Shown in pieces: positions 3,576-38,456 of a stretch of DNA of 44,432 bases. Position 1 is the stretch's first letter; every line of letters starts with the position of its first letter. The notes under the pieces were generated by a model. It was given only the letters and a program-made list of their open reading frames with translations. It did not search any database and was not told the DNA's origin. This DNA is from a virus, in IMG/VR virus record IMGVR_UViG_3300009152_000074, positions 1 to 44,432 of that record; one strand, written 5' to 3'. Both the position numbers and the translations under genes were made by a program.

Positions 3576-3677
3576 TTTTTAAATCCTTTAATTGTTGAAC
3601 ATTTTGGGTGTTTTTGAGCTATAAAGTACGCCTAAAATAATGCCTATAAATACAATTGTTATTATAATAAATTTTTT
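3576..3677. promoter_or_regulatory. Divergent intergenic region between the late sigma factor and the baseplate genes
   Basis: This 102-base AT-rich stretch separates the minus-strand gp55 group from the plus-strand structural genes. It holds the gp55 ribosome-binding sequence at its left end and a perfect late promoter near its right end. I see no convincing pair of -35 and -10 boxes for the minus strand and no hairpin terminator. Confidence 0.7.
3645..3652 (+). promoter_or_regulatory. Late promoter TATAAATA
   Basis: This is an exact match to the T4 late promoter core TATAAATA, 25 bases before the tube-cap ATG. In T4 this element occupies about -13 to -6, so transcription would begin near 3658 and leave a leader of about 20 bases. 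It stands alone in the intergenic region with no fitting -35 box, as expected for gp55-dependent promoters. It probably drives the baseplate genes downstream. Confidence 0.82.
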
Positions 3678-9857: not shown

Positions 9858-9900
9858 TCTACGCATATAATAAAAACAATAAATATCCATAGTTTAAACT
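9858..9900. promoter_or_regulatory. Short gap with AATAAATA late-promoter-like element before gp6
   Basis: The 43-base gap between gp25 and gp6 holds AATAAATA at 9878-9885, a fit to the NATAAATA late-promoter form of marine T4-like phages. If used, transcription would start near 9891, only about 10 bases before the gp6 ATG. A TATAAT hexamer at 9866-9871 has only a poor -35 partner. An internal late promoter is likely but unproven. Confidence 0.5.
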
Positions 9901-9904
9901 ATGG
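9887..9904. repeat. Perfect 18-base palindrome across the gp6 start codon
   Basis: CCATAGTTTAAACTATGG is identical to its own reverse complement and contains the gp6 ATG in its right arm. The bases on either side do not extend the symmetry. It could be a protein-binding site or an RNA structure limiting initiation. Confidence 0.8.
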
Positions 9905-25300: not shown

Positions 25301-27329
25301 TGATAACACAAATGTTTTTGTAAGCTCTTCATCTATCACTTCAACCGGAATAGCTGAACATATCACCACAGATGGTTCAATAGGTTCGGGTTTGGTGTCA
25401 TTGACGGGTACGGGTAGTTCTACATTAAATTCTGTTTCTTGGTATAGAATAGGCCTAGGTGATAACACAGTAGATACTATAGGAACGTCTGTAACAATTA
25501 ACCTACCTTTGTTAGATTCTGCCACGGTATCATTAGAAACGCCGGGTTGGGATAAAAACACTAGTAGAGGAGCCAAATATTTTATATCAGTAGAGACCAT
25601 CACTGGTCCTGTAAAAAAAAGCAATATAGAAGCATTACTAGTGCATGATGGGACAAACGCATATGTTACCTCGTACAACATAGTGAACACAGGAGCATCG
25701 GATATGGTCACAATTTCGAGTGATATAGCCGCAGGTAAAGTGAGATTATTAATGTCATCTAATGTGGGTGATTGTAGAGTTAGAGCTTATAGAATATTGC
25801 TGAGTGATGGAGACACTAATGATGGAAGTAATGTTGTTGGAAACACTGTAATCTCAAGCGGTGAAACCCAAATAGACACTTTTCAAATTTCTGATTATAT
25901 CGGAGCTCATTATATTGTGACAGCGTACAATGCAAGTGAAGGAGCAGCATCGATATCGGAAGTGACATTAGTGGCAAGTTCTTCACAAATATATACTAAC
26001 ACCGCACCGCACCTAAGCACCAAAGGATCAGATCAATTATCATTTAGTAGTTCAATATCTGGAAGTACAATATCGTTCAACGCAAGTTCAACATCAGGTT
26101 CAGGCACTGTTGTTAGTGTTTATAGATTTGGATTATTGCGTAATCCAGGAGGAACAATAATTGATCCCAGCAAGGTCAGAGTATACCTAAATGGTATTAA
26201 GAAAGATCGATTTAGTGATTACGCTGTTAATATTGATACGAAATCAATTATATTTAATGATGCACCAGCAAATTTGGATTTAATTGCTATATCCACACAG
26301 GTAGGAACGCATTACTTTGATAAAAATGATCAAATAGTTTTACAACCAGACAACATGACTCTAGATGGTATCACTCTTGCTGAAGGAGATATTATTACAG
26401 CAACAACATTTAATAATGCTGTGGGCATGAATCAACGCAGAGAAAAGTTTAAAGGTAACGACTCTGGAGAATATTATCTGTTTCAAACTCCGTTGAATAA
26501 CGATTATGTATTTGTTTGGGCAAATGGAGAAAATCTAGTACAGGGGTTTGATTGGATAATAACAGATAATAAGATCACAATCACGAGATTATTAACATCT
26601 AATGACAGAATTGATATAATGTATTTTGTTACCGAAGGTAACAATTTTTCTACTGGCTTTAGAATATTTAAAGACATGCTCAATAGAACATTCTATAAGA
26701 GAATCAGTCAAACAAACACAACAACACTGACAACAAATTTATCAATTGATGACAAAACAATCACAGTAACCGATGGCAGTGTGTTGAAATCTGTGGATGG
26801 TAGTACATTGTTACCAGGAGTAATCTTTATTGACAATGAAAGAATAGAATATCTTTATAAAGATGGTAATACACTATCTAATATCAGAAGAGGTACTCTA
26901 GGAACAGCAATTAAAAATCATATTTCTGGAGCATCAGTAGTTGATGCATCTGGTCAACAAACTGTTCCATATGCTGACACAATATATACTAAAAAACACA
27001 TTGCTGATGGATCAACCACAGCATTTATTTCATCACAATCGTTGAATTCTCCTCATGAGGTTGATGTTTTTGTGGGAGGAAGACGATTACCATATCTTAA
27101 TGAAGACAGCAGTGCCAATTACACAGTAAACACATGGGATGGTAGCTCAGCCAATATTATATTAAGCGAGCAACCTGCTGCTGGTACAGAAGTAAAAATT
27201 ATACAAAAACGTGGACAAATATGGTATAATAGGGGAGAAACAACTGCTGCTGATGGTAAAGGATTGGGTAAATCCAACACAGCACAGGCCAAATTCATAG
27301 CGGGAGAACCAACAAATGTACCTGAATAA
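13389..27329 (+). CDS. Giant multidomain virion structural protein (4646 residues) at the gp7 locus
   Basis: This single open frame encodes a protein of roughly 500 kDa, probably a peripheral baseplate or fibre-scaffold component. It lies where T4 has gene 7 (1032 residues). Domains in order: a conserved N-terminus (1-160); a cupredoxin-like domain (about 190-285) with His222, Cys275, His278 and Met281; Trp-rich conserved blocks (about 770-1290); a WxxxxxYxxGxxVxYxxxxY module near 1663-1707, like a carbohydrate-binding module; a seven-blade FG-GAP propeller (about 2094-2542); an IKPYHTKIREY block near 3145; a second small aromatic module near 3402; GDGST-type beta repeats (about 3520-3915 and after 4350); and a block containing IRRGTLGT near 4490. 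No frame break or internal start is needed. The role of each module is inferred. Confidence 0.85.
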   Translation: MVDKPLDSQSNYDVVTDEKGVTLRRSIAHLPAFYRTDVNERFLNTTLDQLIQPGSLIRLDGYVGRKDSYTRLSTDKYIESGIEDRDNYQLEPTVTYTDKDTSSINPEDQIKFTATYDDYINQIKFFGGNITNHDRLNKEKVYSWDPSIDFDKLINYREYYWMPEGPNPILIANNGTNTVSEIEVTHTGQSAYNFGIYPGLDNPSITLYRGNTYKFILDTQGHPFYIMTEPFKTGIAEDGSTSVIYSTGVSGNGTDKGTLTFTVPTSAPAVLYYQCGNHASMQGIFTIRTISETTKIDVEHEIIGTKNYTLKSGTKLSNGMKVRFEDNVASSTYARKEFYVEGVGASITLTDTANLIVTGSYTEESTEPYDGVPYADRPYSVSFYRPVTPDYITIKRDSIDGNAWSKYNRWFHKAVIEATAVANGYTPVLLETDRAKRPIIEFDSGLSLFNHGTTAKKSVALVDNVTKDVFSKMVNQTGYIVDGVPLRDGMRLLITADTDPLINNRIYVVNFVSVAGAEVTTLRLTEDSDALPLDGDAVSVELGAINQSKTFYYSTVERAWIEGQSKLDINQPPLFSLFDKNHKAFDDNDVYPNSTFTGSKLFEYKISSMAAKDPVLGLQIKYNTIKNVGDIVFTSDFATGSFEYNVNEQSYTKNFNTGHAHQILSKDNHVSRCGWIERKEESRQRVKRLFTVTRDELKLFPVDVFENSKSLSDLSVTVDVNHITQNLGTDYTLVDGLTYKYVKFAKDLNVNDLVELNCYSSAKKIASKGIYEIPENISVNPFNAQLSDFTYGQILNHLHDINEKNVEMVGDTPGSSNLRDIGNVRLEGGSIIQHGSALPQAIFLLIDQNANAIKSIEYCNNEYQRFKETFLVNTQGTAHEGLISDRVNEIIKNTSNNKNASFPFYYDDMIGHGEKLTVRNYTVQDPEELEYAIDSQFDTTVPSTRAVYVYLNDQILILGYDYIFNTESDGVTITKALNTGDKITIKDYENTAGSFVPPTPTKLGMYPKFKPEKIIDNTYRTPVEVIVGHDGSRTIAFGDYRDDLLLELEKRIYNNCKTVFNSELLSEDDIRPGVFRTSEYNNSEINSILSLDFYNWAGQNGIEYQNNTNYDENDYFTFNYSKNKNIINGETLPGYWRGIYKYFYDTDRPHTHPWEMLGHSEQPSWWIDTYGPAPYTSGNELLWNDLTAGYNTGLEETVNKYKRPGLLDYIPVDNSGNLKSPMAIGLIDQYQNLGINEKWKFGDQGPSETAWRRSSQYPFSIMKLLALTKPAKFFGYFLDNSRLKKNVAGNYINSETEVASTLKSTKYYLETTGGSTTGITAGYQPFIVNYLIKNGLDPAPFFYDKLKNLNVQLAYKLGGFTDKENLKVLTDSISPGSTAGSQFIPNENYKVLFRISNPVRDYDYSGVLVELNSNVTGDGSTLEGGYKVIGYNTIKPYFRVLNPVENKNAHSITIGNSSAIIYNDWSENETVVPYGAVFKTVQQVINFLIGYGKYLELQGFIFDKFSNEIKEINNWETSAKEFLYWTRQGWALGSAITLSPGAAGFVLATDNSVISKFQNSLGQYSVLDSAGRAIETQYISTKRVGNKFSIAVKNTEAGIYNISMNAVQKEQIILFDNITVFSDIIFELVTGFRQQRLKLVGWKTGDWNGDYYSPGFIFDEAKVDRWIANTDYQIGNTVEYANGFYVSKKNHNSGTEFDFEKWTKKKSKPSAQLIPNFDYKISQFNDFYNLETNNFDETQQKLAQHLTGYQSRSYLENLFLNDVSQYKFYQGFIREKGTQNAIDRLVKAKFYGENINLTVYPEWMIKVGEFGNLDGSKSIQLTLSDNNFTSNAQSIELLNDDNDTEDYTRSLSVTSDKFYSKPLEYTASTTFSRYDYTQQGYDRDFVQKYKTAGYVRITDAQHTAFDEKDLLNLNVNEINNKDLIWIAKKPNSDWDVQRITYTGLNLITIKPINNNTQVILGFNGVHNLIVNQYIAINNSQFPTLNIVYQITQIIDATSILVNFSNASTISRSFISTDASTITTYGNLYRFVSVRLSSLDTVNTVLPYNEYQAADAVNRLPGDKIFVDNAGANWKIYEKIDPYKTFRIGSPDTDNNQEFGYKTIARSDGRFVIISAPGSRGATSQGALYFFSRGENNPGVAFSLANTAVMSDSTTGTGRLGHSLSMSTDENFVVAGAPYANILTIDGSTRRNNSGLVKLFIWDSVTKAYNEFTTIKPADDSSSANINFGWSHAMAEPTIDSNKYTRQKYLLVGAPGYANDTGIVYLYTYTPVEDSTFAAWTQDNSVVSSQSGSNKRFGHRMAINDNGDILAVSSVSPDDAGMVEIFVRNSPSNDDSSVLGFSHVQTLKGVSADDSTLNTAFGESLSMSKDGATLIISAPGRDNLSQADAGAVYIYKWNADGSTNTYTLQQTIYSPETATNMQFGSTVHLNHDADRLVIGAEKFANSRTVKFDSGLTTFDLQDTQIVDLNIGSGGVFTATKYNDNFVLDGKLITSNVSANDDFGRSVFVINNSVFVGAPGDDTKFSDNSTRENDGMVAVFDLATPGSYSWNAVEEEETLIDDRQIDSAFIFDRAEQKIKSYIDYYDPIKGRILGIADREINYKTEWDPAVYNLGTEAVNVKPTMSWAEEHVGEVWWDLSKVRWIWYEQGNQEYKTKNWGKLFPGSEIDIYEWVETTLLPSEWNQLADTAVGLSQKVSGKPLYPDNTVFTLRQKYDSRSDGFINYYYYWVKNNVFLPNIAKSVVTRKNTTGYIANIINNPKAAGIRYFAVSGTNKLIAFNIKNDIINDNTVLNITYKDTIKEGDSHYVWKLIKEGDKDDAPNTQIEKKWWDSLIGSDEAGNEVPDIALPLNQKYGNKVRPRQSWYVDRFNALKEIIDYVNSVLAKNQLADNIRYDNLNSAEAEPNAISREWDDTVETYDDLTYIDTRDISGTTNILVKNDQTFSKGFWAIYNWNGAEWVRTKLQTYKTSAYYDRVDWYDESFDSNAIIEKQLNYQYELDALSLDNGKYVKVLTADTGGWKIFESTAEGFKNIATQNGTIQLKTSLYDYSIDNTGFDGQDAFDVNFFDSEPKLELRKILTAIRDDLFIGDLKVEYNNIFFIGLRKVLEQQKYVDWLIKTSFINVSNVLRELDQRKSYRVTTEDYVEEYINEIKPYHTKIREYKLGYTGLDTEDGIYTDFDLPAFYDGDTIRNVNISNDAAILSTYPYRFWRDNYKKYVDSITVIDGGSGYITAPTVTLVGGTIKTVGPFTVLGTSTQGASSGQYGYFYPLYTAKVDADLADSQAGGAGTSELFKFNEFSSVDFYMPTTGQNIAITDRPESYEIYTLSDVTQATARAVIKEGAVVRIVVLTAGTKYTSIPRVIITGGGANGNTPVNSARAYANLRNDIVRDISTTIKFDRVQSTATVLQWTSNTTYAYNDLIRHDNKLYKVIATYTSTETFDEGLTNLTRLRGDEPYITAAERTLGLYAPDAGMPGNELSQVMTGVDYGGVMVTGLAFDNGQGWDRSPWYDLPWDSFGLSRVKIFYGDGTTTSFTFDYAPQPTDVYTVYFTDISDSSVQYPAAMANVNRVRQRTQVLRGDGTTKTFTILGDDGNPTPANTVIELIPFDDDGVLTPTDDKTLDTLITGGLFKSALGVSPSDIIVEGDAFITPETSYAPEENLPGSIFDTVDIRVYTAPTSGVPFIIHKNYIGDASTTLFSIGQLAGTQSSVVVSLDGVTQTLNSEYTVDIQNKTITFASAPAVSSKISIKSFAISGSNYMVLDTFVGDGSTYSFATKSRETYQLDSSMSQLFVTVDGVPTTDYTYTVNNRDITISLHTGDGSTANPPAAGTSVQVASFNQPAGNGRAYSEIRSQQIVYDGSTDTYTLSYPPGSIEPYSSLTILEHQGKILRGPDNTYYLGDGSSNAFSFVDYAGSTEDDSTSTGYVDVKSGEKTGILNDPTAIDSWLQTEYDSAWYMAITRDEVSGELATAKYSLVHDNTNVFVSSSSITSTGIAEHITTDGSIGSGLVSLTGTGSSTLNSVSWYRIGLGDNTVDTIGTSVTINLPLLDSATVSLETPGWDKNTSRGAKYFISVETITGPVKKSNIEALLVHDGTNAYVTSYNIVNTGASDMVTISSDIAAGKVRLLMSSNVGDCRVRAYRILLSDGDTNDGSNVVGNTVISSGETQIDTFQISDYIGAHYIVTAYNASEGAASISEVTLVASSSQIYTNTAPHLSTKGSDQLSFSSSISGSTISFNASSTSGSGTVVSVYRFGLLRNPGGTIIDPSKVRVYLNGIKKDRFSDYAVNIDTKSIIFNDAPANLDLIAISTQVGTHYFDKNDQIVLQPDNMTLDGITLAEGDIITATTFNNAVGMNQRREKFKGNDSGEYYLFQTPLNNDYVFVWANGENLVQGFDWIITDNKITITRLLTSNDRIDIMYFVTEGNNFSTGFRIFKDMLNRTFYKRISQTNTTTLTTNLSIDDKTITVTDGSVLKSVDGSTLLPGVIFIDNERIEYLYKDGNTLSNIRRGTLGTAIKNHISGASVVDASGQQTVPYADTIYTKKHIADGSTTAFISSQSLNSPHEVDVFVGGRRLPYLNEDSSANYTVNTWDGSSANIILSEQPAAGTEVKIIQKRGQIWYNRGETTAADGKGLGKSNTAQAKFIAGEPTNVPE
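13969..14260 (+). other. Cupredoxin-like domain with complete type-1 copper ligand set inside the giant protein
   Basis: The encoded segment has the GHPFYI strand that supplies the first ligand (His222), and the C-terminal loop YYQCGNHASMQG that supplies Cys275, His278 and Met281. The C-x2-H-x2-M spacing matches amicyanin-type blue copper proteins. The hydrophobic strand LTFTVP and the APAVLYYQC strand order are also typical of the cupredoxin fold. Copper binding is inferred from the ligands. Confidence 0.72.
19672..21015 (+). other. FG-GAP-type seven-bladed beta-propeller domain inside the giant protein
   Basis: Seven successive repeats begin with FG or LG (FGYKTIA, LGHSLSM, FGWSHAM, FGHRMAI, FGESLSM, FGSTVHL, FGRSVFV). 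Most continue to a VxxGAP-like or ISAPG-like turn and a GxVxxF/Y strand. This is the integrin-alpha-type FG-GAP pattern, and seven blades close one propeller. Such domains usually bind proteins or glycans. Confidence 0.75.
23940..25130 (+). repeat. GDGST-type repeats in the C-terminal part of the giant protein
   Basis: Units beginning GDG(S/T)T or close variants occur near 23954, 24106, 24445, 24668, 24825 and 25069, with a further copy near 27003. Fuller units continue with a VDGV turn and an ITFASAP-like strand. At DNA level GGAGATGGATCCACA is repeated near 24667 and 24824. This pattern is common in phage fibre and baseplate proteins. Confidence 0.7.
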
Positions 27330-28010: not shown

Positions 28011-29234
28011 ATGCCTTATACAGTAAATAAAACAGACTCAACAGAATCACCCAATCAATACACAGTACAAGATTCTGTTTTAAATACTCAAACAAATATT
28101 TCTTTAATAGGAAAAGGATATGCCGGTTATGGAGAAATTGTAGCAGAAAATTTCTTACATCTTTTAGAAAATTTTAGCAATTCAAATGCACCGAGTAAAC
28201 CTATCAAAGGACAGTTATGGTATGATTCTAGCACACAAAAATTAAAAATATTTACAGGTACCTCATTTCAACCAGTAGGAGGAGCAAACTATCAAAATAC
28301 TGCTCCGGTTGGATTAAATGCTGGAGATTTATGGGTTAATTCTACAACTCAACAACTATATTTTAATAATGGTACTGACGATGTTTTAGTTGGTCCAGCA
28401 GCAACTACAGACAGTGGTTTTAGTTTTGATACAATTCTTTCATCAATTGATCAATTAAAAAATATAACCTATTTAAAAAATAACAATGTGCTTATAGCAA
28501 TTATCAGCGAAGAACAATTTATTCCTAAAATTTCTATTCCTGGATTTCCTACAATTAAAAAAGGAATAACCCTTACAGAAGATATAGTAGGAGTAGCATT
28601 TGCTGGTACAGCATCAAGTGCCAGCAGTTTAGCTGGTGTAGATCCCGACAATTTTTATTTAAAAACAGGTGGAAACCTTACAGGAAAAGTTAATATTAAA
28701 AATGATGAAGGACTACAGATAGGTGCTGATGATGATTTTAGAATTACAGTTGAATCAAACGGCAATGTTTCTATAATTAACAATACCAATAATGCAGATA
28801 TCACTTTTACAATTAAAGACGGTGGTGCAGTAACCACAGTAATGACCATTGATGGAGCCACTTCGAGAATAGGTATTGGCACAATTACTCCTTCTTCAAC
28901 ACTAGATGTTAGTGGCACAGTGAATGCCACAGCTTTTACAGGACCAATAACAGGAGCAGTTACAACCACAGGCATTGAAGTTAATGATGGCGGAACTATA
29001 GCATTTAATGGAACTATCGATGACAGTAATTCAACTGTTCTAACAGTAGCCGAACCCACAGGAACCAACACAATCACTCTGCCTGATCGATCAGGGTCAG
29101 TGGTTACTACCGGTGATACCAACGGTAATGCTTCGATCAGTGGTAACATGTTCAAAAGCAAAATTACTTTAAGTATTTTAGATTCAAGCGGTGCAACGCT
29201 AACCACAATGTATGCTCCAGGCTCTAACACTTAA
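28011..29234 (+). CDS. Tail fibre-like protein, paralogue 1 of 3
   Basis: This 407-residue protein shares its first 130 residues with the proteins at 34626 and 38663. The shared elements are a VNKTDST start, a GKGYAGYGE segment, a KGQLWYDSST segment and a VGLNAGDLWVNS segment. This domain probably attaches the protein to the virion. The middle (about 215-300) has a LQIGADDDFRITV stretch and a TIDGATSRIGIGT turn, both typical of beta-helical fibre shafts. The C-terminal region differs from the other two and ends in a short Ser/Thr-rich segment, so it is the likely specificity part. It follows the structural protein by 5 bases and is presumably read from the same late transcript. Whether it forms a whole fibre or only a tip is unknown. 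Confidence 0.65.
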   Translation: MPYTVNKTDSTESPNQYTVQDSVLNTQTNISLIGKGYAGYGEIVAENFLHLLENFSNSNAPSKPIKGQLWYDSSTQKLKIFTGTSFQPVGGANYQNTAPVGLNAGDLWVNSTTQQLYFNNGTDDVLVGPAATTDSGFSFDTILSSIDQLKNITYLKNNNVLIAIISEEQFIPKISIPGFPTIKKGITLTEDIVGVAFAGTASSASSLAGVDPDNFYLKTGGNLTGKVNIKNDEGLQIGADDDFRITVESNGNVSIINNTNNADITFTIKDGGAVTTVMTIDGATSRIGIGTITPSSTLDVSGTVNATAFTGPITGAVTTTGIEVNDGGTIAFNGTIDDSNSTVLTVAEPTGTNTITLPDRSGSVVTTGDTNGNASISGNMFKSKITLSILDSSGATLTTMYAPGSNT

Positions 29235-29296: not shown

Positions 29297-30274
29297 ATGG
29301 CAGTTAGAACACCCCTATATCATGATGATACATCATCTGCTTCTACGCCTATTTTAAAACAGATGTCCGCAGGTCAAATTACTGCAGTCAAAAATGCTTT
29401 TAAACAATTGTATTTTCAATCTCCATCCGTGAGATTAAATGTTATTCCTTCCGGTGGTGGTAATATGAGATTGCCTGACAATAGTGCAATGACAAATACT
29501 AGATTGGTAGCGGGTGCTTATTCTACCGATCCCACTACTTTTCCAAACGAAGAAACAACACAGGAACCGCAAATACAAACAGTAGAGTATGATAGATTAA
29601 ATCAAACAATTGAATCAGTGACTCAGCCAACCAATGCTAGTAATATTGAATATCCAATCTATTACTACACTGATGGTGCTTCACAACCGATATTAAAATC
29701 AATGACTCTGCAGGATATGTACGATACTTTTGCAGAAGCTGTTGTTACAAATGATCTTTCTGTGGGAGGTGCTGTATATACAGTGTCAACCAGTACAACA
29801 GAAGCAGGATATACAGAAGTTAGTGGCGACGAAACTCCATTTTTTTTAGACACTAGAGCTAACCCTGCAGGCTATAACGCAGCTGAAATTCCAGAAACCG
29901 AAGACTCCACAACCACACAAGAAATACAAAATTATTATCTACACAAAAAAAATTATGTTACACCTGCTTATCAAGCACCGGCTAGATTAACATCAACAGG
30001 AAATATTATTACTCCAAGCACAGAAACTTGGAACACTGTGTTTCAATCGATTATACGTTATATGGCAGCTAATGTAGAAGGATATAGATTACGTTATTCC
30101 ATCAATGGTAGTGGCTCTACCTGTGGCACTGCGATGACAGACACTCGATTGGAAGGCGGCGCTGGTGTTTATCAAACGCTTGGAGCAGGTGGTGATGATT
30201 ATAGAGCCCAAGAATTTCCAGATGGATCCAGCACAATTATAAGCACATACGAATTAAAAGTTAATCAAATATAA
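29297..30274 (+). CDS. Uncharacterised virion structural protein
   Basis: I do not recognise a named family for this 325-residue protein. It is soluble, rich in Thr, Ser, Asn and Tyr, with no membrane segment. The first 40 residues include an amphipathic helix (ITAVKNAFKQLYF) followed by a short SPSVRLNV strand, which looks like an assembly or attachment segment. The rest is predicted beta-rich, with a Gly-rich end (TRLEGGAGVYQTLGAGGDD). Location between fibre-like genes and composition suggest a virion or fibre component. It has its own AGGA site and a possible sigma-70 promoter, so it may also be expressed separately from its neighbours. The next gene begins 3 bases downstream. Confidence 0.5.
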   Translation: MAVRTPLYHDDTSSASTPILKQMSAGQITAVKNAFKQLYFQSPSVRLNVIPSGGGNMRLPDNSAMTNTRLVAGAYSTDPTTFPNEETTQEPQIQTVEYDRLNQTIESVTQPTNASNIEYPIYYYTDGASQPILKSMTLQDMYDTFAEAVVTNDLSVGGAVYTVSTSTTEAGYTEVSGDETPFFLDTRANPAGYNAAEIPETEDSTTTQEIQNYYLHKKNYVTPAYQAPARLTSTGNIITPSTETWNTVFQSIIRYMAANVEGYRLRYSINGSGSTCGTAMTDTRLEGGAGVYQTLGAGGDDYRAQEFPDGSSTIISTYELKVNQI

Positions 30275-30277
30275 TTA

Positions 30278-30766
30278 ATGATTTTAGACAACGGTAGATT
30301 TACTCATGCTGTGTATGCCAGTAGCAAACAGAATTTAATTTTTGCTACATGGTACAGCGAAAATACTAAGAAGCACAAAGAGATTGCAATTAAAACAGAT
30401 CTCGATAACAAACTTTATAAAAAATTATTAGAAACTTTTACTCCTGACGAAATTTATCAAATGACAGACCAAAAAAGAAAATTAAACAGTCAAACGTTTG
30501 AGATTTATGTGAAGGATATTGCTTTAAAATACGGATTAGTTTATGATCCCCTGATACATAATCCACAAGAAAAGTTAACAGTTGATAATCTGTTTAATCC
30601 ACTTGCAGGAGATGTAGGTACAGATTTATTGTTTAATTTAAAATTAAAAATATTTGATCTCCCGGAAGTAACACAATCTAACAATACTGAATTGAAGAAA
30701 AAACTTCGCGAAGCAAAAACTCCTCTAGAATCTCTGTATATAGCAGGTAAATTTTTATACGAATAG
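30278..30766 (+). CDS. Hypothetical protein, 162 residues
   Basis: No family is recognised. The protein is mixed alpha/beta, highly charged and Lys-rich, without signal peptide or membrane segment. It starts with a strand pair (FTHAVYAS and NLIFATWYSEN), continues with a helical EIAIKTDLDNKLYKKLLETF segment and ends with a C-terminal helix ESLYIAGKFLYE. Unlike its upstream neighbour it does not look like a structural beta protein, so a small regulatory or assembly role is possible. Its last 12 bases overlap the 3' end of the minus-strand glycosyltransferase gene, so the two convergent transcripts meet without an intervening terminator. Confidence 0.55.
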   Translation: MILDNGRFTHAVYASSKQNLIFATWYSENTKKHKEIAIKTDLDNKLYKKLLETFTPDEIYQMTDQKRKLNSQTFEIYVKDIALKYGLVYDPLIHNPQEKLTVDNLFNPLAGDVGTDLLFNLKLKIFDLPEVTQSNNTELKKKLREAKTPLESLYIAGKFLYE

Positions 30767-31453
30767 ATTGTATTTTTCCCACTGATGTGGTTGATTACTC
30801 ATATGAGTAAAATGTACGAACTTGATGTCGGGATAGAACTCATTGCCTAAAAACATGTAAGGATTTCCTGTAACTTCATTATATTTTTTATTAAGATTAG
30901 CCAATGTGTGTCTAGAAAAAGGTTTGGGTCTAGCTTCCATCCTACAAAACCAAGCATCTGGTAGTGTAATTAATTCTAATCTTTCTTTTGCACTGTCTTC
31001 AATGAAATGTTGTTCTCCATTAACAGGACCACTAGTGAATCCTTCTTCTATATATTTTTTCTGCCAATGTTCAGGATTGCTCATGAATTTTTCATAAATG
31101 TAATAGCAATCACGTGGATAATATTTGTAAAAACCTCCATTTATATTAAATCTATTTTTTTCTCCTGTTTTATCTCTCCACCAACCCGGAGCAGCAAGAA
31201 ATTGTCCAGGTTTAATAGGATATTCAAATATTTTTTTATAATCATTGATGAGTAAGACATCAATATCCATTACACAGATAGGCTCGTCTTGTGCGAGAGC
31301 CATACCATACATTTTATTCCATTGCAGTTTTATGTTGTCGGCTATAGGTTCTCTAATCCAATTGAATTCATATTCAGGTAATTTAGATTCTAGATAGGTC
31401 TCATATTCAGGACCATATCTCGTGCCTATTCTAACAGCAATTATTTTTGTCAT
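30755..31453 (-). CDS. GT-A type glycosyltransferase, last gene of the minus-strand cassette
   Basis: This 232-residue protein probably transfers a sugar from a nucleotide sugar. An ICVMDIDVLLIND stretch has a DxD motif (DID, residues 63-65) at the end of a hydrophobic strand, as in metal-dependent GT-A enzymes. The N-terminal MTKIIAVRIG strand and a later FNINGGFYKY segment fit the same fold. An aromatic C-terminus holds His residues that could help bind the metal. The frame is open to 31474, but the ATG at 31453 overlaps the upstream stop as ATGA, so coupled translation from there is most likely. Sugar and acceptor are unknown. Confidence 0.65.
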   Translation of the reverse strand: MTKIIAVRIGTRYGPEYETYLESKLPEYEFNWIREPIADNIKLQWNKMYGMALAQDEPICVMDIDVLLINDYKKIFEYPIKPGQFLAAPGWWRDKTGEKNRFNINGGFYKYYPRDCYYIYEKFMSNPEHWQKKYIEEGFTSGPVNGEQHFIEDSAKERLELITLPDAWFCRMEARPKPFSRHTLANLNKKYNEVTGNPYMFLGNEFYPDIKFVHFTHMSNQPHQWEKYNLFV

Positions 31454-32130
31454 AGCCAATAATCGTTGACCCAAGAATTTACTTCATTTTGTTTAGGTCC
31501 GTTGTTTAAAATACATACCTCGTAGTCTAATCTTAATTTTTCAGGTGTGGTGTCTTTGCCATACTTGGCACCTTTCCAATAAGAATAAGCAATACCTGTA
31601 GGTAACAAATCTATTTGTACAGGTTCATGATATAGATAACGATCTATACCTCGATACTTAAACAATATCATGTCTTTATTTTTTTGAAAATAATTGTATA
31701 TTTCATCACCTTGATTGTCTTGCCATTTCATTATGGATGAGTTATATTGTGTAGGATATTTGTTTTCTGGCTTGGCTTTTTTATGAGGTAATAAGAAACC
31801 TTCTTTCCATTGTGAGTATAGAATAGACACTGTTCTTGTTTTTACAGATAACAATCTTTCCATAGGTTGTAAGATCACCACGTCGAGATCAAAAAATATG
31901 TTAGTGCCTTGTCTAAACAGTTTGAATAATTCTAATTTGGGCCAATACTGTGTTAGATCAGTCTGCATGGGAATAATTTTAACAGACGGGTTAATGTCTT
32001 TGCCATTATCGGTATAGCAATAAAACGTGAATGGGGTGCCGCAAATGTTTTTTTCAACCATATTAAATAGTTTATTCACAAATTCTGCGGAGTATTTGTC
32101 ACCCCATTTGACACACATTATATTAATCAT
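31450..32130 (-). CDS. GT-A type glycosyltransferase
   Basis: This 226-residue protein has the same general plan as its neighbour. It has an N-terminal INIMCVKWGDKYS strand, a WPKLELFKLF helix, then NIFFDLDVVI with the DxD motif (DLD, residues 81-83). After that come an NSSIMKW acceptor-side segment and an Arg/Asp-rich C-terminal half. The arrangement resembles capsule and lipopolysaccharide glycosyltransferases of the GT8/GT32 kind, but no specific family is claimed. The ATG at 32130 overlaps the preceding stop as ATGA, and its own stop overlaps the next start in the same way. The three genes 32696 to 30755 are thus translationally chained. Confidence 0.65.
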   Translation of the reverse strand: MINIMCVKWGDKYSAEFVNKLFNMVEKNICGTPFTFYCYTDNGKDINPSVKIIPMQTDLTQYWPKLELFKLFRQGTNIFFDLDVVILQPMERLLSVKTRTVSILYSQWKEGFLLPHKKAKPENKYPTQYNSSIMKWQDNQGDEIYNYFQKNKDMILFKYRGIDRYLYHEPVQIDLLPTGIAYSYWKGAKYGKDTTPEKLRLDYEVCILNNGPKQNEVNSWVNDYWL

Positions 32131-32696
32131 ACAGTTTGATACTCCCATTTTGTGTGTCGATCGATTTGTTTCATAAATTCTTCAGTGTTCAATTGCCACA
32201 CAGTTTGATTGGTACCTCTGTAAAAAACATCTTTAACTTTTTTTATTACACCTTGTTTTGACAATAGCTTGGCCCATATACCATTTACCTTTTGCATACT
32301 AGCCTCATCTTTATTGGATGATGTAATATAATATTTGCTGTCTTTGGGAAGAGCATCTAATGTAACCGGGATAAAAATTTGAGAACAAATATTTTGATGT
32401 TTTGTAATACCGTCTTTAGCTCTCATATGTTTAATAGGTAATAGTTCAGTCAACGCACAAGTTCTCACACAAATTCTATAACTATTTTCTCCCATTACTT
32501 CATCGAAGTCGTGAACAGCAGTTGAACCAACAGGTAAATTATCATAAAATAAGATCCACAAATTAAAATATTTTTGTTTACTAAAAGAATCAATCAGTCT
32601 TTTTTGTGAAGCATTGTTTAAAAATCCTTTTTCTTGGCATCGCTGGTAAAAGAAAGACAGATCGAGGTCATTAGTATATTTTTTTATTTCATACAT
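32127..32696 (-). CDS. Uncharacterised protein, possible acetyltransferase-like fold
   Basis: This 189-residue soluble protein has no motif I can name with confidence. A strand pair LWILFYDN-LPVGSTAVHDF, a later RICVRTCAL strand and a helix-rich C-terminal half are compatible with a GNAT-like fold. However, the acetyl-CoA loop typical of that family is not seen. It is the third gene of the minus-strand cassette, 29 bases after the QueC-like gene, and its stop overlaps the next start. A TATAAT hexamer lies 10 bases before its ATG but without a good -35 box, so a separate promoter is unlikely or weak. Its location suggests a role in modifying the product that the glycosyltransferases use. Confidence 0.45.
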   Translation of the reverse strand: MYEIKKYTNDLDLSFFYQRCQEKGFLNNASQKRLIDSFSKQKYFNLWILFYDNLPVGSTAVHDFDEVMGENSYRICVRTCALTELLPIKHMRAKDGITKHQNICSQIFIPVTLDALPKDSKYYITSSNKDEASMQKVNGIWAKLLSKQGVIKKVKDVFYRGTNQTVWQLNTEEFMKQIDRHTKWEYQTV

Positions 32697-32725
32697 TGTA
32701 CTAGATATTATATAATTTTTTATCT

Positions 32726-33517
32726 TTAATTAACAGAATAATTTGTAAGATCGGACACAGTGCTGTCTTTGAATACTGTTTTTCTTCTTGCACAACTTTC
32801 ACAAATACCACAATTACCCATAGACACATCGCAGCTACTTGTTTGGTACAATTGTGAAGTATAACCAAGAGCATCATATAGATCTATAATTTCTGATTGT
32901 GTAAGTTTTTTAAAAGGTCGAGTGTTTGTTTCATAGTCAATTTCGTATTGTTCAAAACCGATATATTTGCTTACTCCAAATAATTTTCCTTGTTGTTTAA
33001 AAACATAATTGTACAATTCTAGATATTTGTTTTTATTTGTTTCAAGGTATGGGTTAAGTCTATCATTTGTAATTTTTCCTTCACTCCATTTAGAATCTTT
33101 TAACATAGTCATACATTGTTCATGAATTTTATTGTGTCCGGATAATACAAATTTCAATTGAGGATATTGTTGTAATATTAATCTTTTTGCTTCAACAGTC
33201 ATATTTCTATTTTCTTTAACTGTATTTGATAAAATATATTGATGAGTACCACCTAGTTTTTTTACAGCTTGGTCAAAATATTCTTTTAAAAAATTTAATT
33301 TGTCTTCATCGTTTTTAAATTGTAAAAATTCTTCAAAAGCAATCAATACAAAAACTACATTATCTATACCATATAACTCTTTAGCTATTAAAGCAATTAG
33401 AGTAGTTTCAATATCTCCAGTAAATAGAATTCCTACTTTTTCACCAGATGCAATTTTAGGAAACTCGTCTAGATTAAACGGTGTTTTGTTTTTTCCTAAA
33501 ACATACGACTTATTCAT
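32726..33517 (-). CDS. QueC-like protein with degenerate ATP pyrophosphatase loop
   Basis: QueC makes preQ0 from carboxy-deazaguanine with ATP. This 263-residue protein has the QueC-type C-terminus: a RPFKKLTQSEIIDLYDALGY segment, then a zinc site with Cys229, Cys236, Cys239 and Cys242 (CGICESC) and an ARRKTVF end. The N-terminal loop that should read SGGxDS reads TGDIETT (about residues 33-39). The strand and helix on either side are kept. So ATP use may be changed or lost, or the substrate may differ. I chose the ATG at 33517; a TTG two codons upstream is less likely. It overlaps the radical SAM gene by 8 bases. Tail-fibre cassette location argues against simple queuosine synthesis. Confidence 0.6.
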   Translation of the reverse strand: MNKSYVLGKNKTPFNLDEFPKIASGEKVGILFTGDIETTLIALIAKELYGIDNVVFVLIAFEEFLQFKNDEDKLNFLKEYFDQAVKKLGGTHQYILSNTVKENRNMTVEAKRLILQQYPQLKFVLSGHNKIHEQCMTMLKDSKWSEGKITNDRLNPYLETNKNKYLELYNYVFKQQGKLFGVSKYIGFEQYEIDYETNTRPFKKLTQSEIIDLYDALGYTSQLYQTSSCDVSMGNCGICESCARRKTVFKDSTVSDLTNYSVN

Positions 33518-34523
33518 GGTCAACCTTTTCTGTATAATGCCACAAAGTTTTTTGTGGTATTTTTATACCATCTGCTTCAATCACGTGAACCTGTGAACCA
33601 GTACATCTTTGATGACAAATAGATTTGTCATTTTTGTACATTGTTTCCAGCCAATTTTGAAATATTGGGTCATTTAATATTTCAAAGACACCACGCTGAT
33701 GCAATGATATAGAGTATTTATTTTCAGATATTGCCCAGTTGTTTACTTTGTTAAATGTAGATGCAGTCCAACAACAAGGGAACAATCTACCCCAAGAATC
33801 CACATAAATCTCTTTCCTTTGTTTGTGTAGACAAATTAGTGATCCTTTGTGCTGCATAAAATCAATATCAAATCTGTCTGCTGTGGGAGGATATATTTTT
33901 TTAGTTGTATTATTCTCATCACGATAGATAAACGGTTTATTAAAATCTTTAAATCGAGCAGAAATTTTTAAAACAAAATCTTTAAATCCCATTTCTTTAG
34001 CCATTGTTTCAGCTGTCTCAACCTGATGCTCATTGTGAAAGAAAGGTATAAAGAACCATTTGGCATTGGCTCCTGTTTTTATAAATGCTCTAGCATTGTC
34101 TATCAACTTTTTCCATTGTACTCCTACTCTATATATATGATTGGTATCTTCCAAACCATCGATGTGCCACTCTACAAATGAGTGAGGAGTTCGGGCATAA
34201 ACGTTGCCTAACTTTTCCCAAAAATCGGTGTTGCGTACTCCACCGTTGGTGCTTAAAGTAATCATGATAGAGGGATTGTGTTCCAACACATATTCGTGAA
34301 TCTGTATTAGATCATGGGCGATAGCAGGATCACCGTAATTGCCACAGAATTTAATTTTCTTTAATTGTTTTATAAAAGTTTCTGGAAAAAATTTAACGAA
34401 ATCTGTATAGGATATTTCTGACTGATTATTCAGTATTATTGGGTTATTAGTTCTCGAGCACATTGGGCATTTTGCGTTGCAACGGCTTGTAATTTCCACA
34501 TGTACTGAATCTATTTGGTCCAT
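33510..34523 (-). CDS. Radical SAM protein with SPASM-like C-terminus
   Basis: The first gene of the minus-strand cassette encodes 337 residues. The CxxxCxxC motif that binds the SAM [4Fe-4S] cluster is complete (Cys15, Cys19, Cys22, CNAKCPMC). It is followed by a GNYGDP segment and an STNGG strand, as in active family members. The C-terminal part has a SPASM-like cysteine pattern: LICLH, then LFPCCW after a DSWGR turn, and CHQRC, which may hold extra clusters. SPASM proteins often modify peptides or enzymes, but no precursor peptide is seen next to it. The ATG at 34523 is chosen because a consensus promoter ends just before it; an upstream ATG at 34538 would lie before the predicted RNA start. 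Confidence 0.78.
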   Translation of the reverse strand: MDQIDSVHVEITSRCNAKCPMCSRTNNPIILNNQSEISYTDFVKFFPETFIKQLKKIKFCGNYGDPAIAHDLIQIHEYVLEHNPSIMITLSTNGGVRNTDFWEKLGNVYARTPHSFVEWHIDGLEDTNHIYRVGVQWKKLIDNARAFIKTGANAKWFFIPFFHNEHQVETAETMAKEMGFKDFVLKISARFKDFNKPFIYRDENNTTKKIYPPTADRFDIDFMQHKGSLICLHKQRKEIYVDSWGRLFPCCWTASTFNKVNNWAISENKYSISLHQRGVFEILNDPIFQNWLETMYKNDKSICHQRCTGSQVHVIEADGIKIPQKTLWHYTEKVDHE

Positions 34524-34529
34524 TATGCT

Positions 34530-34558
34530 ATTATACATATATATTTGCTCAATATCAA
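34530..34558 (-). promoter_or_regulatory. Sigma-70-like promoter TTGATA-N17-TATAAT, leaderless geometry
   Basis: Reading the minus strand, TTGATA (34558-34553) is followed by a 17-base spacer, TATAAT (34535-34530), 6 bases, and then ATG at 34523. The predicted transcription start coincides with the ATG. It would drive the five-gene cassette from the radical SAM gene to the last glycosyltransferase. Confidence 0.75.
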
Positions 34559-34611
34559 GCAAGTTAACTAAATTACGCCAAAAACCCTTTAAAACGTTAT
34601 TTGTAAAATGA

Positions 34612-34619
34612 AATAAATA
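34612..34619 (+). promoter_or_regulatory. Late-promoter-like AATAAATA before tail fibre paralogue 2
   Basis: AATAAATA lies 6 bases before the ATG at 34626. A start 6 bases downstream of the element, as in T4, would fall on or next to the ATG and leave almost no leader. It shares a 102-base divergent region with the minus-strand sigma-70-like promoter. Confidence 0.55.
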
Positions 34620-34625
34620 TACAGC

Positions 34626-36116
34626 ATGGCATACATTGTAAACAAAACAGACGGATCACAATTAGTCTCAATCACAGACGGTACAGTGGATAACAGCACA
34701 TCGCTGTATCTATTTGGTAAAAGTTATTCAGGATACGGAGAGTATCTCAACGAAGATTTAGTAAAATTATTAGAAAATTCTGCATCCACAGCTAGTCCAT
34801 CGGCACCTTTAAGAGGTGAGCTTTGGTTTGATACCAACACCAATCAATTAAAAGTGTATGACGGAACAGCATTCAAGCCCACAGGTGGAGCCAAATCACA
34901 ATCAGCAGAACCTACAGGAGCTTCTGCAGGAGATTTATGGATCAACAGTGACGATGAACAAATGTATTTTAGAACCAGCTCCAGCACATGGCAATTGGTA
35001 GGACCGGTTTATTCAAAAGGTCAAACACTGTCAGGATGGAAAGTAGAAACCATTAATGACAGCTTTGGAAGCAGTAGAGTAATCAGCTCAATGTATAATG
35101 GCAACACCAGAGTTGCAATTATGAGTTCTGTGACTTTTACTCCAGCATCAGCACCGTCGGGATTCCCAGAAATATATGCTGGTATCACAATGAGCAATGC
35201 TCTAGGTGCAACCTTTGCAGGATCAACTACCACAGCAGCTAATTTAAATATTTCAGGAACCACAAACATTTCAGGCACAGTGATCGCTGGCGGTAATATC
35301 ATGAGAAAAGACACAGCGCAAACCATGACGGGTGTTCTAACTATTTCTACAGACAGCGGTATGAGAATTGGTGCTGCTAATGATTTACAATTAACAGTGT
35401 CGGGCATTGATACTACTATTTCTAACGTGACTGAAAATGGAGACATTGACATTCAAGTTAACAACAACGGATCAACCATAACACCAATCAAGATTGATGC
35501 AGCAAATGGTAGAGTGGGTATTTTTACAAGCTCACCCACAGTGCCATTTGAAATCACAGGTGACGTTAGAATTGTAGGAAATTTAAGTGTGTCTGGAGAA
35601 TATGCCAACACCACAAGTAATATTAACGTGATTGATGACAACTGGTTAAAATTAAACACAGGAAATTCACAAGCAGATGCCGGTATCATAGCAGAAACAG
35701 ATTCTTTAACAGATGATGCTAGATTATTTTGGTCAGTGTCAGACGGTTTTTGGTCAGCAGGCAGCAATGCTTCTTACTCTCAAATAATTAGATTAGCTGA
35801 TGCTAGCACTAATGGAGATGCCAACAAAGGTACAGTTTTAAAGACAGATGTATCCACAGGTAATGTTACAGTAACTGATGTTACTATAGGCACAGCATTC
35901 GTTGCAGTGTCCACAGCAAGTACCTCGCAAAAAGCAGCCACAATTTATCAAGTTGCAGAATCTATCAAAAGATGGGGTGGCTCTTATGTCACTATAGATG
36001 GTACTGTAGGTTCACCAACAGGCAATAGTATAGCAGGTGCTAGATATGTAGAAACTGTTGCACCAACCAGTGGACAGGGAAGTAACGGGGATCTTTGGTT
36101 TGTAAGGGAGCCTTAA
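34626..36116 (+). CDS. Tail fibre-like protein, paralogue 2 of 3
   Basis: This 496-residue protein has the shared N-terminal attachment domain (VNKTDGS start, GKSYSGYGE, RGELWFDTNT, ASAGDLWINS, WQLVGP). It continues into a shaft-like middle with a GMRIGAANDLQLTV stretch and a NGRVGIFTSSPT turn, close to those of paralogue 1. From about residue 330 it has a NINVIDDNWLKLNTGN segment that describes a knob-like part, and its C-terminus (APTSGQGSNGDLWFVREP) differs from its paralogues. It is the first plus-strand gene after the inverted cassette and has its own late-promoter-like element. The polyglycine adhesin gene follows by 4 bases, so the two may form one fibre and its tip. Confidence 0.68.
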   Translation: MAYIVNKTDGSQLVSITDGTVDNSTSLYLFGKSYSGYGEYLNEDLVKLLENSASTASPSAPLRGELWFDTNTNQLKVYDGTAFKPTGGAKSQSAEPTGASAGDLWINSDDEQMYFRTSSSTWQLVGPVYSKGQTLSGWKVETINDSFGSSRVISSMYNGNTRVAIMSSVTFTPASAPSGFPEIYAGITMSNALGATFAGSTTTAANLNISGTTNISGTVIAGGNIMRKDTAQTMTGVLTISTDSGMRIGAANDLQLTVSGIDTTISNVTENGDIDIQVNNNGSTITPIKIDAANGRVGIFTSSPTVPFEITGDVRIVGNLSVSGEYANTTSNINVIDDNWLKLNTGNSQADAGIIAETDSLTDDARLFWSVSDGFWSAGSNASYSQIIRLADASTNGDANKGTVLKTDVSTGNVTVTDVTIGTAFVAVSTASTSQKAATIYQVAESIKRWGGSYVTIDGTVGSPTGNSIAGARYVETVAPTSGQGSNGDLWFVREP

Positions 36117-36120
36117 TTCC

Positions 36121-37623
36121 ATGCCTTACACTATTTCAACTACTGTTAAACCCAACGACACCTATACATTCACATATGATGGTTATAAATGGACTGGCAT
36201 CATTCCGGCTGGCGCACAATCTATGAAAGTTTATCTTTGGGGAGGAGGTGGCGGAGGTGGAGCACAAGAAACTTCCGGAGCAAACGGCACAGGCACAGGC
36301 GGACATTACGTTTATCACGATTCTATTGATCTTACATCACATGTGGGAGAAACTATAACATTAGGAATAGGTGGAGGTGGTGGCGGAGGATCCAACGGTG
36401 GAGGAGTTGCAGGTGGATTTAATGGTAGAAGTTTAACAGGATATTCAGGCGGTGTGGGAGGTAGTTCCGGATCAACAGGATCGTCAGGATCTGGTGGTGG
36501 TGGAGGTGGAGCCACAATAATACAAATTAATAGCGTTGACGTAGCTTTAGCTGCAGGAGGAGGAGCCGGCGGTGGAGGAGGAGCAGACAGTCAAGGAGGA
36601 GTAGGTATAACTTCTAATGCTCCGACATTAGCTGCGCCAGGCACACTGGGAGAAAATGGAACACCTCACAACGGAAACGGTGGCGGAGGTGGTGCTGGTG
36701 GAGGTGGAGTAGATGGGGGTATAGGTGGAGACAGTAATGATAATGATGCCGGAGGAAACGGTGGATATGCAGGTTCTTCTTTAGTACCAAGCGGAGGAAC
36801 AACTACAGTAGCAAGCGGACAAACGCCAGCTGGATCACCAGGCAGTGGATTTGCTACAGGAGGAAATCAAGGTTCTTCCGGAAATAACGGTAAGGCAATA
36901 ATAATTTTTACAATCAGTGCAGAAGCAAGAGTCAAAGCAACTGGAGCATGGAAAACTATTACCGCTATGAAATTCAAACGTGACGGTATTTGGAAGAATA
37001 TTACTGCTGCTTACATAAAAGTAAATGGAGTATGGAAAGCTATATTTAATACAGGATTTAATTGGCAATCAACAACAGCAGGGTTTGGAGACACCACAGG
37101 TAATCCTTATTCAGGCAGTCCAGGTACCGGTCCTTCAGGTGGAGGTGGAGGTGGAGGAGGATGTTCTATTATCTGTACCAAATTACATGAGTTAGGTTAT
37201 CTATCAGATGAGATCTATCAAGCAGACGAAAAATTTGGTCATTGGTTAAGACAGACAGATCCTGATGCGTATTATGGATACCTTAAATGGGCACGAGTCG
37301 TTGTGGATTGGATGAGTAACGAAGGTCCACAATGTATGTTTTGGATCCAAGATAAAATCGAAAGAAATTCTCGTCAAAAAGCTATGGCTGTAAGATGGGC
37401 AAAAAGAATTGCTACACCATGGGCACAGCATATGGCTTACAAAATGGGAGTGTTAAAAGAAGACAATCGAGCAGGCAGATGGATAATGAATATTGGTATT
37501 ACTGTAAGCAGAATTGTAGGAAAATTTGTTAAACATACCAACCAGCCTACTAAAAATGTAGCGATTGGTTATGCCATGTGGGCAATGTTTGGATTATTAT
37601 ACATGATAGCAGGAGTAAAATAA
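36121..37623 (+). CDS. Polyglycine adhesin, tail fibre tip-like, with helical C-terminal domain
   Basis: This 500-residue protein is a probable receptor-binding tip. The N-terminal strands lead into a WGGGGGGG run (residues 40-47). Gly-rich blocks follow up to about residue 262, like the Gly-rich domains of phage adhesins such as S16 gp38. Three WK repeats (GAWKTI, GIWKNI, GVWKAI; about 273-306) follow. A second glycine run near 340 ends in CSIIC and opens an all-helical domain to the C-terminus, which closes with a hydrophobic stretch (about 478-500). The last part resembles the next protein. A GGGAG sequence lies upstream of the ATG. Its stop shares one base with the next start. Specific receptor unknown. 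Confidence 0.7.
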   Translation: MPYTISTTVKPNDTYTFTYDGYKWTGIIPAGAQSMKVYLWGGGGGGGAQETSGANGTGTGGHYVYHDSIDLTSHVGETITLGIGGGGGGGSNGGGVAGGFNGRSLTGYSGGVGGSSGSTGSSGSGGGGGGATIIQINSVDVALAAGGGAGGGGGADSQGGVGITSNAPTLAAPGTLGENGTPHNGNGGGGGAGGGGVDGGIGGDSNDNDAGGNGGYAGSSLVPSGGTTTVASGQTPAGSPGSGFATGGNQGSSGNNGKAIIIFTISAEARVKATGAWKTITAMKFKRDGIWKNITAAYIKVNGVWKAIFNTGFNWQSTTAGFGDTTGNPYSGSPGTGPSGGGGGGGGCSIICTKLHELGYLSDEIYQADEKFGHWLRQTDPDAYYGYLKWARVVVDWMSNEGPQCMFWIQDKIERNSRQKAMAVRWAKRIATPWAQHMAYKMGVLKEDNRAGRWIMNIGITVSRIVGKFVKHTNQPTKNVAIGYAMWAMFGLLYMIAGVK

Positions 37624-38456
37624 TGGGAATATCAGTTGAAGAATATCTACACAATAGACAGGCCTGTGCTCAATGTCAAGAGCATGGAGATGAAGAGCAT
37701 TGTGTATCTACCCTATTAAGTCGTGAAGACAATTGCATATTTTATAATTCAATTCTAGCATATCATCTACCCACTAGAACAAAAACAACACCATTTACAC
37801 CAGATGAAAATAATGCATCAGCACAGGCTGACTTTGCTCTATTACAAGCATTCAGAGAATATATTAACGAAGATAAAATGGTAGAATATTATGTAAGAGC
37901 AGAAAAAATAGTAACACAAATCAGAGGCATACATCAAAATGATAGAATCATATGGCAAGGATATTACGAAAGATATGTTAGAGACATTCTAAATTCTTTA
38001 AGAAACAACGATAAAAATACTGCAGTGGTAAAAATTGTGGAAATGTTAGAAGCATTAGAATATACCAATGGTAGAGTTATATGCACCTGGTTAAGAAACA
38101 ATGGTCTATTTTCTCCAGAAGATCTTGCAATGGATACCCAATTCAGTGTACAATACTTGAGTGATAATACCAAAATAGGTTATTGGATATGGGCATGTCC
38201 ACTGGTACACTATATGGAAAAAAATTACAAAACAAAAGTTGATTCTTTATTTGTAAAAACAATTAGAATCATTGCTCAAGCTAGAACCAATGAGATAGCA
38301 TATCAAATAGGAACAAGAGCTCAAAGTGATATACTGGGTAAATTTGTTAGAATAGTAGGAGAAGGCATGTGCTTTATTATAGGCACTATAGCAAAACCTT
38401 TTTTAGCCAAAAAGTTTAACAATTGGCTGACACTGTATTCTACAAAACAAGGATAA
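37623..38456 (+). CDS. Helical partner protein of the polyglycine adhesin
   Basis: This 277-residue protein is mostly helical and has a Cys-rich N-terminus (ACAQCQEHGDEEHC) that could bind a metal or form disulfides. Its C-terminal part resembles the end of the upstream adhesin: a GYWIWA segment, then an INEIAYQIG-like helix, GKFVRIVGEG, and a hydrophobic FIIGTIAKPFLA stretch. The shared module suggests origin by duplication and an interaction or chaperone role. The frame is open from 37578, but the ATG at 37623 overlaps the adhesin stop (TAATG), the same junction as tube cap-gp53, so I chose it. No known family is claimed. Confidence 0.55.
   Translation: MGISVEEYLHNRQACAQCQEHGDEEHCVSTLLSREDNCIFYNSILAYHLPTRTKTTPFTPDENNASAQADFALLQAFREYINEDKMVEYYVRAEKIVTQIRGIHQNDRIIWQGYYERYVRDILNSLRNNDKNTAVVKIVEMLEALEYTNGRVICTWLRNNGLFSPEDLAMDTQFSVQYLSDNTKIGYWIWACPLVHYMEKNYKTKVDSLFVKTIRIIAQARTNEIAYQIGTRAQSDILGKFVRIVGEGMCFIIGTIAKPFLAKKFNNWLTLYSTKQG

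Follow-up and report, generated by a model that had tools for sequence, protein, structure and literature searches.

An inverted cassette of radical SAM, QueC-like, acyltransferase and glycosyltransferase genes conserved beside fibre genes of marine T4-like phages

The IMG/VR virus record IMGVR_UViG_3300009152_000074, analysed here over all of its 44,432 bases (hereafter "the window"), carries a cassette of five minus-strand genes inside a plus-strand fibre region. Its open reading frames (ORFs; 239, 232, 189, 265, and 350 amino acids) span positions 30755-34562, between plus-strand ORFs at 30278-30766 and 34626-36116, as noted in a preliminary description of the window based on its sequence. 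In the order of transcription, the genes encode a radical SAM protein, a QueC-like protein, a GNAT-fold acyltransferase, and two glycosyltransferases, here termed GTb and GTa. The same layout and order of genes are seen again in independent virus contigs, so the cassette is real and not a chance arrangement. The features of the locus are as follows:

29297-30274, plus strand: V, a virion or fibre-like protein, constant left-hand neighbour of the cassette and candidate acceptor; 41% identical to a protein of Pelagibacter phage Mosig by alignment
30278-30766, plus strand: U, the 162-aa partner of V and the landmark at which the inverted cassette begins (alignment; loci L064-L143)
30755-31474, minus strand: GTa, GT-A-fold glycosyltransferase, last gene of the operon; ORF from TTG 31474, likely start ATG 31453
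31450-32148, minus strand: GTb, glycosyltransferase with a DLD motif (phrog_1962); likely start ATG 32130
32127-32696, minus strand: GNAT-fold N-acyltransferase, from an AlphaFold2 (AF2) model and Foldseek
32726-33523, minus strand: QueC-like protein (PF06508); likely start ATG 33517
33510-34562, minus strand: radical SAM protein with a SPASM/twitch-like C-terminus; likely start ATG 34538 or 34523
34530-34558, minus strand: sigma-70-type promoter-like site TTGATA-17-TATAAT, an 11/12 consensus match covering the start of the radical SAM gene
34613-34619, plus strand: ATAAATA, a T4-type late-promoter-like motif 7 bases upstream of the fibre gene at 34626, also seen in near relatives by alignment

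The tight packing described previously was located in full: the QueC-like and radical SAM genes overlap by 8 bases (33517-33510, given the in-frame ATG 33517 of the QueC-like gene), a 29-base gap (32697-32725) separates the GNAT and QueC-like genes, and ATGA junctions join GNAT to GTb (32130-32127) and GTb to GTa (31453-31450). The 3' end of GTa overlaps the convergent U gene by 12 bases (30755-30766). The single promoter proposed to head the cassette was likewise recovered, TTGATA-17-TATAAT being the top promoter-like match of the region, with TATAAT kept in 8/8 and the -35 box in 6/8 aligned relatives; as a class, promoter-like sites are not enriched in this region (15 found vs 25.8 expected). 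Since this site overlaps the first codons (ATG TAT AAT at 34538) and the next in-frame ATG, at 34523, falls approximately at the expected transcription start, the first cassette message may be leaderless. The presence of a sigma-70-type site on the cassette strand, instead of a late motif, suggests early or middle expression during infection.

The radical SAM/SPASM assignment held, as both the cluster cysteines (CNAKCPMC) and the C-terminal auxiliary-cluster cysteines (CCW...C...C) are present, and CxxxCxxC and the C-terminal Cys are invariant in 8 radical SAM sequences. The protein scores above the Pfam cut-off for PF04055 and below that for SPASM, and its top NCBIfam model, the twitch-domain family N_Twi_rSAM, is matched with an E-value (E) of 1.2e-12, under the curated cut-off. 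Phage radical SAM proteins 25-27% identical over partial coverage were found in the Campylobacter phage CP220 group and in Mosig; unlike the radical SAM protein, the QueC-like gene has no counterpart in the named-phage collection, as searched by tblastn, and a nucleotide search of the window against named phages also gave no match. Profile searches of the PDB with the radical SAM or GTb alignments returned nothing useful, a search for known anti-phage defences gave at most a weak viperin-type radical SAM match, and chromosomal radical SAM relatives in Bdellovibrionia adjoin other radical-SAM-like genes and pointed to no clear function.

For the second gene, previously called a QueC-like ATP enzyme, the family assignment stands (23.5 bits to Pfam QueC, PF06508, against a cut-off of 22; in its ATP-loop stretch, a profile of the window protein also matches LarE and NAD synthase), and the four zinc cysteines are invariant across 15 aligned QueC-like sequences, at a spacing of C-x6-CxxCxxC in the window vs the canonical C(x)8CxxCxxC. 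The ATP part of the name fared less well. The SGGxDS loop is degraded to TGDIET in the window, and across lineages it ranges over SGGMDS (L035), SGGVDS (L032), GGIES, GGIKS, EADIES, and TAGIKS, being intact only in the distant loci L035 and L032. The other canonical motifs YxQxHxxE, VPxRN, and YPDC, reported for QueC in PMC13329287, are absent from all 15 sequences, and PADLOC gave no QueC match for the window protein. Classical QueC chemistry is thus doubtful for this protein, judging from its motifs, although the gene is retained. Between lineages, its amino-acid-changing substitutions accumulate several times faster than those of the radical SAM gene, and this low cross-lineage identity raised the possibility of a decaying pseudogene, which was ruled out by ratios of nonsynonymous to synonymous divergence (dN/dS) of ~0.14-0.24 in close pairs. 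Together with uneven synonymous divergence (dS 0.026 for window/L019; 1.54 for L025/L026, vs 0.48 for the radical SAM gene in that pair), these ratios indicate a gene under purifying selection, with faster evolution and allelic exchange. Cap9 and QatC, QueC-family protein-modifying enzymes, likewise use the QueC scaffold beyond base synthesis and share the zinc cysteine cluster; these enzymes retain SGGxDS at the ATP site, and their partner bears an N-terminal glycine motif (PMC13279940, PMC13329287), whereas the window protein has a degraded loop and no partner was identified for it.

The third gene, initially left as "unknown", is predicted to encode a GNAT-fold acyltransferase: its AF2 model shows typical GNAT topology at a moderate predicted local distance difference test score (pLDDT 70.9), and 124 PDB matches were found with Foldseek at E <=0.001, the top ones being GNATs (E 8.6e-6 to 1e-4) and the matches listed almost all GNAT-type acyltransferases. 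Acyl-CoA binding and transfer are its putative activities. The two glycosyltransferases were confirmed, with DxD motifs in both. GTa (pLDDT 85.5) models as a GT-A DxD enzyme resembling GT8/GT24, with a DID metal motif and INGG and NGEQ blocks, of which D62/D64, NGG, and NGEQ are invariant in 15 sequences; its top Foldseek matches in the PDB include UGGT, LARGE1, LH3, GlyE, LgtC, and glycogenin, along with a PBCV-1 capsid glycosylation enzyme. GTb matches the glycosyltransferase family phrog_1962 (E 3e-12) and is assigned by its profile homology to GTa (hhalign 96%). No membrane spans are predicted in the window cassette proteins (Kyte-Doolittle threshold 1.8), and few in those of relatives.

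More than 100 marine virus loci (designated here by L numbers) were retrieved with three queries, the radical SAM protein, the QueC-like protein, and U, and clustering of GTa at 95% identity reduced these loci to 17 non-redundant lineages. Two of these, L085 and L086, end at a contig edge soon after GTa, and counts for GTb, radical SAM, QueC-like, and GNAT refer to the other 15. V, U, and GTa are found in 17/17 lineages, GTb in 15/15, the radical SAM gene in 13/15, the QueC-like gene in 12/15, and GNAT in 7/15; the radical SAM, QueC-like, and U counts are biased upward by the use of these proteins as queries, while none of GTa, GTb, GNAT, and V served as a query. Rather than occurring independently, a pattern that the preliminary description had named as evidence against a common system, the radical SAM, QueC-like, GTb, and GTa genes co-occur in 12-13 of the 15 readable lineages. 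A GNAT gene lies nearby, not between QueC-like and GTb, in L034, L089, and L090. In the near group, GTa directly follows U on the opposite strand, with two small ORFs between them in L070, while in a distant second group V-U is followed by genes of ~237 and ~202 aa and then by the inverted row of glycosyltransferase genes.

No gene separates GTb from GTa in the window group, in which GNAT lies ahead of GTb. The slot between GTb and GTa is filled in L025-L031 by a protein of two domains, the C-terminal one a methyltransferase (Methyltransf_24 in L025, E 6.8e-15), in L036 by APS kinase and sulfotransferase genes, and in L040 by a single methyltransferase-like gene. The other domain of the methyltransferase fusion, at its N-terminus, was considered as a GNAT, but hhalign gave no relation, so the domain is not called GNAT. 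Additional genes in other relatives include an Asp/Asn hydroxylase (L034, L045), carbamoyltransferase, B12-binding radical SAM, fatty-acid desaturase, and ketosynthases. The combination of APS kinase and sulfotransferase, fatty-acid desaturase, and ketosynthase in islands on the fibre side of L036 (7286-8334 and 10576-13445) is unusual for a phage. In L027-L031, the cassette is constant while the right-hand fibre genes change completely. Hence, where the preliminary description had suggested following the gene set across phages for a link to fibre type, the cassette travels with the V-U pair on its left and not with the type of fibre on its right.

The setting of the cassette had been described before. 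According to Zaragoza-Solas 2020 (PMC7029224), pelagimyophages and cyanomyophages carry a hypervariable host recognition cluster in which radical SAM cassettes and GT8 glycosyltransferases accompany the tail fibres, and such phages also encode Asp/Asn hydroxylase, fabF, and desaturase genes. The window region is variable and likewise interleaves tail-fibre genes with glycosyltransferase and radical SAM genes, and its cassette, with only five genes, is a compact form of such a cluster in a marine phage of the T4 superfamily. The earlier suggestion of an undescribed system thus holds for the variant and not for its setting, as the radical SAM/QueC-like/GNAT/GTb/GTa set and its V-U anchoring do not appear in the available part of PMC7029224. 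The module is conserved, and it is this version that is new within a kind of region already known. The layout of V, U, and an inverted cluster recurs in enlarged form in a cultured SAR11 phage, Pelagibacter phage Mosig EXVC030M, where it constitutes the host recognition cluster of PMC7029224: VrlC, small ORFs, V, an epimerase gene, and U precede an inverted cluster with GTb-like, GTa-like, and radical SAM genes plus carbamoyltransferase, methyltransferase, aminotransferase, and nitroreductase genes. Within this Mosig locus (L164, MT647606 56000-78000), a set resembling a biosynthetic cluster, with nitroreductases, aminotransferases, a carbamoyltransferase, and three MoaA-like proteins, adjoins the fibre genes.

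We tentatively favour, at slightly less than even confidence, a role of the cassette as a glycan-building and tailoring module whose target would be a virion fibre or adhesin protein of the same region, with V as the first candidate. In this scheme, the sigma-70-type promoter of the operon would drive its transcription ahead of the late fibre genes or independently of them, yielding five soluble enzymes in the host cytosol. GTa and GTb would take sugars from nucleotide-sugar donors, attaching them to a side chain of a fibre protein and next to the sugar placed first, and GNAT would acylate an amino-sugar or amine of the fibre glycan, a step at which relatives probably use O-methyl or sulfate groups. 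The radical SAM enzyme may make an unusual sugar or modify the acceptor residue, while the QueC-like protein, with its standard ATP-pyrophosphatase chemistry probably lost, may serve as a zinc-containing partner or as an altered ligase presenting or joining the unit. Fibres decorated in this way could show altered receptor binding or escape recognition. A narrower version, in which a non-standard fibre unit is made or attached by the radical SAM protein together with a repurposed QueC scaffold of degraded ATP loop and is then elaborated by the two glycosyltransferases and the acyltransferase, has in our estimate only a small chance of being correct.

The idea of an unusual sugar or of fibre decoration, raised in the preliminary description, gains support from two DxD glycosyltransferases and a GNAT sharing one operon linked to V-U, and several further observations point the same way. 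The GTb-GTa slot of relatives carries a methyltransferase or sulfotransferase, which are typical capping activities; the window cassette proteins, its glycosyltransferases included, are predicted to be free of membrane spans; and the position of the cassette is fixed beside V-U while right-hand fibres differ between lineages, a layout seen again in the cultured SAR11 phage. Relatives also carry genes of the Asp/Asn hydroxylase type, a family acting on protein side chains, and several enzymes that glycosylate proteins (UGGT, LARGE1, LH3, GlyE, glycogenin, and the PBCV-1 capsid enzyme) are among the structural matches of GTa. Glycosylation of virion proteins by phage-encoded glycosyltransferases is reported for mycobacteriophages (Freeman 2023, as cited in PMC12619734). 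The phages and the glycosyltransferases differ from those considered here, the likeness lying in phage-encoded glycosyltransferases acting on virion proteins. We know of no radical SAM or QueC-like partner in that system. Several points weigh against fibre decoration. The fibre acceptor is inferred from indirect evidence, the structural matches of GTa reach TM-scores of only ~0.4-0.5 and its fold also includes lipopolysaccharide (LPS) enzymes such as LgtC, and genes for donor-sugar synthesis are absent from the cassette. Distances among V, U, GTa, and GTb correlate with a rho of ~0.9, as phylogeny alone would give, so the linkage to fibre genes may stem from the region having been inherited as a whole, and these gene-to-gene correlations do not discriminate between readings.

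The main competing explanation is that the cassette alters a host surface glycan (LPS core or O-chain), either blocking superinfection or keeping released virions from binding debris. Modification of the host O-chain is the published view of this region, proposed for the GT8 enzymes of pelagimyophages in PMC7029224, and it would fit both the LgtC-type lipooligosaccharide transferases within the GTa fold and an early-type promoter. The window cassette, however, has no lipid-linked initiating transferase, flippase, polymerase, or membrane protein, it is tightly linked to V-U rather than scattered, and its relatives carry companion protein hydroxylases; peripheral glycosyltransferases could still modify the LPS core from the cytosol, and we regard this explanation as rather unlikely but a serious contender. 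The production of a diffusible or nucleotide-linked small molecule, or of a peptide-derived compound, for use during infection would account for the mix of tailoring genes in relatives (nitroreductase, aminotransferases, carbamoyltransferase, ketosynthase, several radical SAM), which resembles that of natural-product clusters. No precursor peptide, assembly-line, or exporter gene was recognised, however, and genes for a free metabolite would not be expected to keep so strictly to the side of fibre genes, leaving this reading a slim prospect.

For the modified DNA base suggested in the preliminary description, the radical SAM and QueC-like proteins would have to belong to a 7-deazaguanine pathway acting on phage DNA. 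Such modifications exist in phages, according to PMC6884629, and the QueC-like protein does belong to PF06508, but the radical SAM protein is of the SPASM/twitch type and not QueE-like, and the QueC catalytic motifs are missing except for the four cysteines. Among seven long relatives, QueD was found in one and tRNA-guanine transglycosylase (TGT) in none, these being fragment records and the TGT model one that may miss distant DpdA. We rejected this pathway on the missing QueC motifs and the lack of TGT in these relatives, and consider it very improbable.

If fibre decoration is correct, sequence-based inferences of host range and receptor binding would have to change for marine T4-like phages, an abundant group. 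As the module is small, spans 17 lineages, and is present in a cultured SAR11 phage, the choice between a virion and a host-surface target is directly testable. The QueC-like protein, under purifying selection with a degraded ATP loop, provides a test case for new uses of its scaffold, and a QueC-based fibre modification, if true, would extend the protein-modifying roles of this fold to the phage's part in the arms race.

Several observations concern the surrounding structural genes. The ORF at 34626-36116 is fibre-like, with a weak Mtd_N match, and shares an N-terminal region of ~300 aa (36-39% identical) with the fibre-like proteins at 28011-29234 and 38663-40279, so paralogues lie on both sides of the cassette. 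Of two adjacent proteins encoded at 36121-38456, the first is glycine-rich and adhesin-like, and the second (37578-38456) ranks among the fastest-changing between close relatives, with 72-83% aa identity in close pairs. In the distant group, V-like proteins (L036:3235-4215, L038:3615-4625) end in long YTG/YTGYYTG repeats, which the window V lacks. Upstream, a baseplate wedge subunit gene (gp6-like, 9901-13386) is followed by a single 4646-aa ORF (13389-27329) where VrlC is expected; this ORF has no tblastn similarity to the Mosig region including VrlC, and no gp14 gene, which with VrlC bounds the host recognition cluster, was recognised in the window. The T4-type late-promoter core ATAAATA is depleted ~fourfold in the window (6 sites vs 25 expected), and 4/5 of its plus-strand copies lie within ~50 bases upstream of plus-strand structural or fibre gene starts. 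The copies before plus-strand genes are:

3646-3652, plus strand: ATAAATA
9879-9885, plus strand: ATAAATA
34613-34619, plus strand: ATAAATA
40227-40233, plus strand: ATAAATA

The full TATAAATA occurs once in the window (3645-3652), immediately upstream of the first structural gene.

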